Below are positions 29,512-42,828 of a stretch of 64,000 bases of DNA, piece by piece. Every line of letters starts with the position of its first letter. The first letter of the stretch is position 1. The notes beneath the pieces are model-generated. The model worked only from the letters and a program-made list of their open reading frames with translations. It was not told where the DNA came from and ran no database searches. The position numbers and the translations under genes were made by a program. Source of the DNA: Collinsella ihumii (GTDB lineage Bacteria; Actinomycetota; Coriobacteriia; Coriobacteriales; Coriobacteriaceae); contig NZ_FCOU01000003.1 of NCBI RefSeq assembly GCF_900046475.1, forward strand, positions 62,001 to 126,000, given 5' to 3'.

Positions 29512-29579
29512 GTGCAAATCGGGGGACGTACCTTCCGCGTGCATACATGCACGCGGAAGGTACGTCCCCCGATTTGCAC
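29512..29579. repeat. Long perfect hairpin, dispersed family copy A
   Basis: Two perfectly complementary 32-base arms (29512-29543 and 29548-29579) begin GTGCAAATCGGGGG, contain GGACGTACCTTCCGC and enclose loop TACA. It lies between the convergent LacI gene and glmS. The same arm sequence recurs at 38501 and 42744. Confidence 0.85.
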
Positions 29580-29594
29580 TGCCTGCTGGCCGCG

Positions 29595-31442
29595 TTACTC
29601 CACGGTGACGCTCTTGGCGAGGTTGCGCGGTTGATCGACGTTGCAGCCGCGCATGAGGGCGACCTCGCGGGCGAGCAGCTGCAGCGGCACGCTCGCCGTG
29701 ATCGCCGAGAACGCGTCGCGGACGGGCGGGATGTAGATCACATGGTCGGCGATCCGCTTGATGTCCTCGTCGCCCTCAGTCGCCAGCGCGATGATGCGTG
29801 CGCCGCGGGCCTCGCACTCCTTCAGGTTGGAGACGACCTTGTCGTACGTCGGGCTCTTGGTCGTCACCGCGATCACCGGGAAGCCCGGCTCGATCAGGGC
29901 GATCGGCCCGTGCTTCATCTCGCCCGCCGCATAGGCCTCGGCGTGCAGGTAGCTCACCTCTTTGAGCTTGAGCGCGCCCTCGTAGCTGATGGCCGCGCCC
30001 ATGCCGCGTCCGACGAACAGCGCGGACTGCGCGCCCTGGCATGCGCACGCCGCCTCGTGGATGGCGTCGAGCTGCGTGTCGAAGATGCGCTGGATCTGCG
30101 CCGAGGTGTCGCCCAGCTCGTGGAACAGCATGCGGACCTGCCCGGTCGTCAGGCGGCCCTTCGCCTGCCCGAGCAGCAGCGCCAGCAGCGTCAGGCTCAC
30201 GATCTGGCCGATGAAGCTCTTGGTCGAGGCGACCGCGATCTCCTTGTTGGCCTTGGTGTAGATGACGCCGTCGGATTCGCGCGCCACCGGGCTGCCGATC
30301 ACGTTCGTGATGCCGAACACTTTGGCGCCCTTGATGCGCGCATCGCGGATGGCGGCGAGCGTGTCGGCCGTCTCGCCCGACTGCGAGACCGCGACCACGA
30401 GCGTCGACGGCGTGATGATGGGGTCCCGGTAGCGGAACTCGCTCGCCGCCTCGACCTCGCACGGGATGCGCGCCCAGCTCTCGATCAGGTTCTTGGCGAT
30501 GAGCCCCGCGTGGTAGCTCGTACCGCACGCGATCACGTAGATGCGGTCGATCACATTGAGCTCCTCGAACGACAGGCCCAGCTCGTCGATATCCAGCTCG
30601 CCGTTGGGTGCGAGGCGGCCCACCAAGGTGTCGCGCACCACGCGCGGCTGCTCGTAGATCTCCTTGAGCATGAAGTCGGGATACCCGCCCTTTTCGGCCA
30701 TATCGATATCCCAGTCGATATGGGTGACCGCAGGCTCGATCCGCCGCCCCTCGGCGTCGGCGTACTCGATGCCCTCGGGCGCAAGCCGCGCGAACTGGCC
30801 GTCCTCGAGCACCACCACGTCGCGCGTCGCGTCGATGAGCGCGATGACATCGGACGCCACGTAGCTGCCCCGCTCCCCGCGCCCGACCACGATGGGGCTG
30901 TCCTTTCGCGCCACCATGATGACGCCGGGCTCATCGGCGCACACCGCCGCCAGGCCGTAGGCGCCCACCACGTGCGCGCACGCCGCCCGCACCGCCGCGG
31001 CGAGGTCGTGCGTTGTTGCGTAGGCTTCCTCGATCAGGTGCGCGAACACCTCCGTGTCGGTCTGGCTCGAGAACACGTGCCCGCGCGCCTCGAGGTCGGC
31101 TCGCAGCTCGGCGAAATTCTCGATGATGCCGTTGTGCACCACCGCGATGCGCCCGTCGCAGCTCGCGTGGGGATGCGCGTTGGCGACCGATGGGACGCCG
31201 TGCGTGGCCCACCGCGTGTGGCCGATACCGCAGGTAGATGCGTCATCCCTCTGCGCGAGCTCCGACTCGAGGCCCGCGACCTTGCCCACGCGCCGCACGA
31301 TGTCCACCACGCAGCCGTCGCCCTCCGCGCGCTCGAGCGCCACGCCCGCCGAATCGTAGCCGCGGTACTCCAATCGCTTCAGGCCGGTGATGAGGACGTC
31401 TTTCGCCGTATCGAGACCGGTGTAGCCGACAATTCCGCACAT
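29595..31442 (-). CDS. glmS: Glutamine--fructose-6-phosphate aminotransferase (isomerizing)
   Basis: This 615-residue enzyme makes glucosamine 6-phosphate from fructose 6-phosphate and glutamine, the first committed step to cell-wall amino sugars. The N-terminal glutaminase domain begins MCGIVGYTG, with Cys2 as nucleophile, and shows RLEYRGYDSAG and the HTRWATHG and HNGIIENF motifs. Two SIS isomerase domains follow (CGTSYHAG ... SQSGETADTL ... STKSFIGQ), and the end is DQPRNLAKSVTVE. The start was set at 31442 by this conserved N-terminus and AAAGGA; the longer open frame upstream is not coding. No glmS ribozyme core is visible upstream. Confidence 0.97.
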   Translation of the reverse strand: MCGIVGYTGLDTAKDVLITGLKRLEYRGYDSAGVALERAEGDGCVVDIVRRVGKVAGLESELAQRDDASTCGIGHTRWATHGVPSVANAHPHASCDGRIAVVHNGIIENFAELRADLEARGHVFSSQTDTEVFAHLIEEAYATTHDLAAAVRAACAHVVGAYGLAAVCADEPGVIMVARKDSPIVVGRGERGSYVASDVIALIDATRDVVVLEDGQFARLAPEGIEYADAEGRRIEPAVTHIDWDIDMAEKGGYPDFMLKEIYEQPRVVRDTLVGRLAPNGELDIDELGLSFEELNVIDRIYVIACGTSYHAGLIAKNLIESWARIPCEVEAASEFRYRDPIITPSTLVVAVSQSGETADTLAAIRDARIKGAKVFGITNVIGSPVARESDGVIYTKANKEIAVASTKSFIGQIVSLTLLALLLGQAKGRLTTGQVRMLFHELGDTSAQIQRIFDTQLDAIHEAACACQGAQSALFVGRGMGAAISYEGALKLKEVSYLHAEAYAAGEMKHGPIALIEPGFPVIAVTTKSPTYDKVVSNLKECEARGARIIALATEGDEDIKRIADHVIYIPPVRDAFSAITASVPLQLLAREVALMRGCNVDQPRNLAKSVTVE

Positions 31443-31554
31443 AGCCGAATCCTTTCGATTCATCCCGAGGGGGTTTATCACGCCTGACAGCTCATTGTAT
31501 GGGACGCGCACCCGTCTCTCGCTAACTGGTACCTTATGTAACATACCAGTAACG

Positions 31555-31593
31555 TAATGGGTTGGAACGAACCCGTCCCCAAACAACCCATTA
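31555..31593. repeat. Short inverted repeat, copy 2 of a dispersed family
   Basis: TAATGGGTTG (31555-31564) and CAACCCATTA (31584-31593) flank GAACCCGTCCCC. This is the reverse-orientation relative of the element at 18-54. It lies in the glmS/LacI divergent gap. Confidence 0.6.
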
Positions 31594-42170: not shown

Positions 42171-42218
42171 GCGCGCTCCCCTCCTGCCATGAGGTACCAT
42201 ATCCGTCAAGGAGGAACC

Positions 42219-42728
42219 ATGACCGATCTTGCCGAACCCCCTGTTATCCATCCTAGCGCATTCGTCGCCGAGGGAGCCGTTATCAGCGGCGACGTGACGC
42301 TGGAGCGCGACGTGAGCATCTGGCACAACGCCGTGCTGCGCGCCGACTGCGACCGCATCGTCGTCGGTGCTGGCAGCAACATCCAGGACGGATGCGTCGT
42401 CCACGAAGATCGCGGCAAGCCCGTGGTCATCGGGCGCGACGTGACCGTCGGACACGGGGCGATCATCCACGGCTGCACCATCGGTGACGGCACGCTCGTC
42501 GGCATGGGTGCCATCGTGCTCAACGGCGCGCAGGTCGGGGCGGGATGCACCATCGGAGCGGGCGCGCTCGTCACGCAGGACACCGTCATCCCCGACGGCT
42601 TCCTGGCGTTCGGAAGCCCGGCGCGCGTCGTCCGCAAGCTCACCGAACAGGAGCAGGAAGCCAATATCCGCGGCGCCCGCCGCTATGCCGAGGAGGCGCG
42701 CCTCCTGCGGGATGACGAAGGGCGCTGA
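42219..42728 (+). CDS. Gamma-class carbonic anhydrase / hexapeptide-repeat protein
   Basis: This 169-residue left-handed beta-helix protein has hexapeptide repeats (VISGDVTLERDVSIWHNAVLRADCDRIVVGAGSNIQDGCVVHED ... VTVGHGAIIHGCTIGDGTLVGMGAIVLNGA). The zinc-binding histidines sit in VVHED, VGHGAIIHG. It is a YrdA/CaiE-type gamma-carbonic-anhydrase homologue, and many such proteins show little or no carbonic anhydrase activity. AAGGAGG supports the ATG at 42219 rather than 42189. The long hairpin at 42744 follows its stop. Confidence 0.85.
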   Translation: MTDLAEPPVIHPSAFVAEGAVISGDVTLERDVSIWHNAVLRADCDRIVVGAGSNIQDGCVVHEDRGKPVVIGRDVTVGHGAIIHGCTIGDGTLVGMGAIVLNGAQVGAGCTIGAGALVTQDTVIPDGFLAFGSPARVVRKLTEQEQEANIRGARRYAEEARLLRDDEGR

Positions 42729-42743
42729 TCCGCCCGCCGCAGC

Positions 42744-42828
42744 GCATATCGGGGGACGTACCTTCCGCATGCAAGGGGCGCGCTTTCGGCGCGCCCCTTG
42801 CATGCGGAAGGTACGTCCCCCGATATGC
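42744..42828. repeat. Long perfect hairpin, dispersed family copy C
   Basis: Perfect 40-base arms (42744-42783 and 42789-42828) begin GCATATCGGGGGACG and include GGACGTACCTTCCGCATGCA, as in copies A and B; the loop is TTTCG and the inner stem is a different GGGGCGCGC. It lies between convergent genes. Confidence 0.85.

Follow-up and report, generated by a model that had tools for sequence, protein, structure and literature searches.

Perfect hairpin repeats of Collinsella ihumii belong to a dispersed, RAYT-linked family whose arms mostly match within a copy

We analysed a 64,000-nucleotide window of the Collinsella ihumii genome, corresponding to positions 62001-126000 of contig C3 in a 2.84 Mb draft genome of 35 contigs. 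Three long, perfect hairpins occur in this window. Their places, first given in an initial annotation of the DNA, were confirmed by inverted-repeat coordinates. Their surroundings, described as two sites between convergent genes and one after a gene end, were also correct. Briefly, copy 1 occupies a convergent gap between genes for a LacI-type regulator and a SIS-glutamine amidotransferase protein. Copy 3 lies in a second convergent gap, between genes encoding a hexapeptide transferase and a DUF3089 protein. Copy 2 is in a tandem gene pair, after the end of an S-layer/papain-like protein gene and ahead of CorA. The hairpins, and the repeat units of which they consist, are as follows.

29512..29579, no strand: copy 1, head-to-head dimer; perfect arms of 33 nt; 4 nt spacer, TACA, between TGCA ends
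29513..29543, + strand: copy 1 left unit, TGCAAATCGGGGGACGTACCTTCCGCGTGCA
29548..29578, - strand: copy 1 right unit, same as left unit but on the opposite strand
38501..38593, no strand: copy 2, head-to-head dimer; perfect arms of 45 nt; palindromic spacer of 25 nt
38505..38534, + strand: copy 2 left unit
38560..38589, - strand: copy 2 right unit, same as left unit
42744..42828, no strand: copy 3, head-to-head dimer; perfect arms of 40 nt; palindromic spacer of 25 nt
42743..42773, + strand: copy 3 left unit, outermost base C rather than T
42799..42829, - strand: copy 3 right unit

The perfect inverted repeats pair positions 29512-29544 with 29547-29579 (copy 1), 38501-38545 with 38549-38593 (copy 2) and 42744-42783 with 42789-42828 (copy 3). 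Hence, the arm lengths of 45 and 40 initially reported for copies 2 and 3 were correct, but that of copy 1 is 33 rather than 32. As described, the hairpins share a core and differ in their inner stems and loops. The inner stems seem diverged because copies 2 and 3 contain unrelated 25-nt palindromic spacers. In copy 3 the spacer is AGGGGCGCGC-TTTCG-GCGCGCCCCT. In copy 2, palindromy extends past the units by 4 bp (CCGG) into the flanks. Predicted folding energies, as single-stranded DNA, were -45.5, -64.6 and -60.4 kcal/mol for copies 1, 2 and 3, with z-scores of -15.5, -21.2 and -17.6, respectively. None of 200 shuffled sequences folded equally well.

The hairpin arms contain a 16-base core, GGGACGTACCTTCCGC. 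Within the window, exact matches to the core were found only in the six hairpin arms. A genome-wide core search, suggested by the initial annotation, gave 101 matches (at most 1 mismatch, 2.84 Mb), and copies are thus far more numerous than three. As a control, the reversed core pattern was used and gave 0 matches in the whole genome. The outcome named at the start as fatal to the idea of a special family, only three copies and all of them terminators, did not occur; besides the 101 core matches, no T-tract terminator signature fell on the hairpins. Across 42 other species of the genus, the core was counted 0-2 times in each. One congener, G008, has long elements built alike. We conclude that the hairpin repeat is a dispersed family that has expanded in a lineage-specific manner. 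A scan of IMG/VR gave only 5 single exact matches.

Statistics on units, placement and arms were obtained from stretches targeted around the copies, ~453 kb in total. Units are 30-31 bp long and bounded by TGCA, with the form TGCA-AAT(C/T)GGGGACGTACCTTCCGCG-TGCA. A loose pattern recovered 119 units, which fall into 75 kinds and form 60 clusters. These comprise single units, tandem units, long elements with inverted end units and 19 simple head-to-head dimers. The perfect hairpin is formed by two units standing head-to-head. By itself, the monomer is predicted to fold with a closing stem of 4 bp, bulges and a 7-nt loop. The spacer CTTT separates tandem pairs in 12 of 20 cases. Dimer spacers are exactly 4 nt, and varied in sequence, in 16 of the 19 dimers and exactly 25 nt in the other 3. 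All three 25-nt spacers are palindromic and mutually unrelated. The two lengths differ by 21 nt, or about two helical turns (25 nt in, for example, 38505-38589 and 42743-42829). A related inner unit, GGGGACACCCCTTC, is found ~31-34 bp further inward beside many single or tandem units; it has 24 matches genome-wide.

All 56 clusters examined were intergenic, according to gene calls made with a home-made codon-usage script and no standard gene finder. An apparent overlap between a cluster and a gene, at window copy 3, was a gene-call error; the true hexapeptide transferase gene ends at 42728. Convergent gaps contained 22 of 55 clusters, compared with 21% of gap length, an enrichment (p 0.001), and divergent gaps were depleted relative to gap length (p 0.02). 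This bias is expected of insertions tolerated away from promoters. The same intergenic placement and preference for convergent gaps, together with very stable stems, could also indicate strong bidirectional terminators, or stabilisers of mRNA 3' ends, with perfection maintained by selection on RNA pairing. We regard this as very improbable. A T tract follows 0 of the 3 window stems, which do not qualify as intrinsic terminators, and terminator-like sites in the region were as frequent as expected from shuffles, with 0 on the three stems. Furthermore, the family is nearly absent in congeners that share the same neighbouring genes, and includes tandem and single units with no long stem. Neither does selection on RNA predict perfect Watson-Crick arms extending into the flanks. 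As a side effect, hairpins at gene 3' ends may affect mRNA ends.

We compared six sites with their orthologous gaps in congeners (window copy 1, C2:33890, C3:233551, C12:206118, C12:208566 and C10:15113). The element was absent wherever both sides could be aligned. Insertion boundaries were unreadable in this empty-site comparison, since congener intergenic DNA is too diverged.

RAYTs are REP-associated tyrosine transposases, which act on single strands and are of the HUH type. A search for such a gene, or another transposase recognising the ends, had been advised at the outset and yielded one RAYT, bounded by repeat units. This sole homologue in the genome is at C9:242035-242817. The flanking units are inverted, with two in + orientation at C9:241240 and two in - orientation at C9:243002. 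The protein matches Pfam Y1_Tnp with 34 bits (cut-off 23). It also matches NCBIfam REP_Tyr_transpos with an E-value of 5e-13, but the score of 49 bits is under the curated cut-off of 80. Among 12 homologues, the HUH motif H60-x-H62 is invariant and the tyrosine, Y123, nearly so. A conserved C-terminal stretch, VKQIxRxTGIGxxTISR, is HTH-like in appearance, where TIRYTs would have a DnaA-like helix-turn-helix domain; Pfam names no such domain. The closest matches in named genomes are from Coriobacteriia (Olsenella, Thermophilibacter), and a PDB sequence search gave no useful match. From the linkage to this gene, and the lineage distribution, we infer that RAYT may drive the spread of units.

The family is new but of a known kind, namely a RAYT-linked repeat of the TIRtron/REPIN type (PMC3733652, PMC6006769, PMC3116915). 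The nearest known system is that of TIRtrons, or TIRYT-associated TIR repeats (PMC3733652), which probably correspond to TnpA-REP subclass 2.1 (PMC6006769). TIRtrons, described by Di Nocera et al. 2013, have a RAYT-like gene flanked by inverted repeats with a GGGG-W-S-A-S motif, and TIR repeats can form dispersed families as dimers or clusters (PMC3733652). Similarly, the gene here is RAYT-like, with an HUH motif, a tyrosine and inverted flanking repeats. The motif GGGGWSAS fits the inner unit GGGGACAC but not the abundant outer unit GGGGACGT. Unlike TIRtrons, the dimers here are perfect palindromes, palindromy reaches unique flanks and the host genus is coriobacterial. In Pseudomonas, REPINs are inverted doublets of a short repeat that form hairpins, are mostly extragenic and are linked to RAYTs (Bertels and Rainey 2011, PMC3116915). 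The 19 simple head-to-head dimers in intergenic clusters share these properties of inverted, extragenic, hairpin-forming doublets. However, in REPIN units a GTAG-type tag adjoins a palindromic core that is imperfect, while our units are TGCA-bounded, with GGGGACGTACC and without GTAG. The REPIN spacer is constrained in length, forms a hairpin and shows compensatory changes (PMC3116915); here, spacer length is 4 or 25 nt and pairing is perfect throughout the dimer. CGTC-tagged REPs are short palindromic repeats, mostly in head-to-head dimers, with a stem of 8-9 bp, a loop of 4-5 nt and a terminal, unpaired CGTC; they are reported to have no dedicated transposase (PMC3733652). The tetramer CGTC is also present in our unit (GGTACGTCCCC), but is internal, and the stem geometry differs. 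We rejected membership of this class. Also unlike CGTC-tagged REPs, a transposase gene here is flanked by units.

To understand why the hairpins are perfect, we compared arms within and between copies, restricting the comparison to the units. The arms are identical in 17 of 19 simple dimers and these 17 include 13 arm types. Shuffling gave a mean of 1.9 identical-arm dimers and a maximum of 9 (100,000 permutations). Arms of one copy differed by 0.26 on average, those of different copies by 3.35. Because the difference within copies is far below that between copies, the arms have not evolved independently. We also measured palindromy in the DNA flanking 34 elements. This totalled 96 bp, against a permutation mean of 22 and a maximum of 60 (200,000 permutations), and was at least 9 bp in four cases. 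We found no description in the literature of REP/TIR-type dimers with palindromy running on into unique flanks. The initial annotation had attributed perfect pairing to copying or gene conversion, or strong selection, and not to chance. Our data agree; the family is expanded and RAYT-linked, arms match within copies and flank palindromy exceeds chance.

A single site illustrates the flank effect. At C2:33890 the neighbouring genes are convergent, and the 11-bp flank arms cover the stop codon of each. The right gene ends GCC-TAG-CCGA, exactly as the left gene does, while the readable congeners end this gene with Gly-stop. Copying of the left flank onto the right would have this result. Because the case consists of a single coding change and four additional bases, it is suggestive and not proof. 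We infer that arm-to-arm copying would fit the arm and flank data better than would selection acting on the element alone. We prefer it because it explains the run-on into flanks as well as identical arms in copies that differ from one another.

It is likely, in our judgement, that the hairpins are non-autonomous REP/TIR-type dimers mobilised in trans by RAYT, with fold-back copying of their arms. RAYT would cut and join the DNA of units that become single-stranded at replication forks. During or after insertion, a nascent strand stalling in the hairpin could fold back, by template switching, and copy one arm onto the other. Arms would thereby become or stay perfect, and the private variants of each copy would appear on both. 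At times, copying would pass the element end and enter host DNA. Hairpins are known to be made or mended by template switching (PMC8794818, PMC7202029). Such template-switch mutation, or quasipalindrome correction, gives rise to reverse-complement copies and makes the arms of a hairpin uniform, each time in a single event. It is, however, a general mutational process rather than an element, and sequence patterns lead us to propose that it acts on a RAYT repeat family. Counting against arm copying, compensatory change under selection has also been reported for REPIN spacers, and such change was noted in REPIN stems as well (PMC3116915).

The main rival to arm copying is that ready-made perfect hairpins inserted into existing palindromes, such as terminator loops. 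Only perfect hairpins would then transpose, and flank palindromy would reflect target choice. REP dimers of other families are reported to be inserted within longer palindromes (PMC3733652), and at C10:15113 and C12:206118 the flank arms have the GC-richness of terminator stems. We nevertheless consider this unlikely. Zero unpaired loop bases remain between element and flank arms, the arms at C2:33890 are gene ends and not a terminator, and 13 arm types, each matched within its own copy, go unexplained. At C10:15113, a short A run lies by the 12-bp flank palindrome. We rejected insertion into a terminator loop at this site, because between the element and the gene stands another terminator-like hairpin that has an A/T tract of its own.

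Mirrored arms could also, in principle, be an assembly or library artefact of a short-read draft. The genome is in 35 contigs, and contig C2 contains two fused tagmentation-adapter ends at C2:6762-6799 (L065:6762-6799, CTGTCTCTTATACACATCTAGATGTGTATAAGAGACAG), itself likely an assembly chimera. An artefact is, for the hairpins, the least credible of the explanations. The dimers occur at many sites, with differing unique flanks and loops of fixed length, and form a single repeat family with a linked transposase. Comparable perfect GGGAC palindromes, with arms of up to 52 nt, are present in other assemblies of the genus.

Possibly, though we are doubtful, perfect hairpins are made in place: fold-back DNA synthesis would turn a single inserted unit into a head-to-head dimer. 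Priming would occur at the TGCA end, or at a 3' end generated by RAYT, and the unit and adjoining host DNA would be copied into an inverted arm. If true, such dimers would result from copying instead of being what transposes, and the process would rewrite the ends of host genes. The origin and upkeep of REP doublet symmetry are unsettled. For REPINs, re-establishing a symmetrical element was described as a key issue by the original authors (PMC3116915). With many copies that are distinct yet perfect internally, and with palindromy leaking into identifiable host sequence, this recently expanded family could provide a sequence record of arm copying.

RAYT homologues are present in 37 of 43 genomes of the genus. 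Several congener RAYTs lie between inverted repeats of their own, which carry GGGAC or a similar motif in different stems. The GGTTGGGGACGTGTTC family is expanded in G016, G021 and G022 (57, 81 and 48 matches) and has 38 matches, mostly variant, in the Collinsella ihumii genome. The TTTGGGACGGGGCTTTTTT family has 71 matches in G012 and 6-22 in 21 other genomes. Both are absent, or nearly absent, in the remaining genomes. Hence, one coriobacterial genus holds several parallel, lineage-specific RAYT-linked repeat families. Long perfect hairpins recur in other repeat families of the genus. Congener G016 contains two perfect inverted repeats, one with 52-nt arms and built of GGGGACGGGC units (L200:786-892), the other with 38-nt arms (L150:2779-2862).

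Other repeats accompany the family in Collinsella ihumii. A second family of hairpins, (A)TGGGTTG-TTGGGGACGGGTTC..., has 38 near-matches on contigs C1-C15 (e.g. L040, L041 and L033). It is often inside long elements of the first family, and the only RAYT of the genome is flanked by the first family. A sequence ending GGGGGTGCGGCAGGAATCCTGGAGCGCC is probably an insertion sequence; it abuts or interrupts repeat units at L063 (C1:70040-71500) and L062 (C12:380300-382000). The window has further inverted repeats. A loopless perfect palindrome of 66 bp at 62568-62633 (CACGCCCCAAGG...CCTTGGGGCGTG) is unrelated to the unit and may be an assembly artefact. Another perfect palindrome, of 42 bp (17277-17318), consists of repeated TCCGGACGCG blocks. 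An inverted repeat at 35612-35706 has TTCATTCATGAATGAACG in each arm. Finally, the inverted repeat at 18953-19045 has arms GATGACACAGAG...TTAGCGTGCC. It is probably a member of a second dispersed family, because similar sequence adjoins repeat copies elsewhere in the genome, at L054, L067 and L064.
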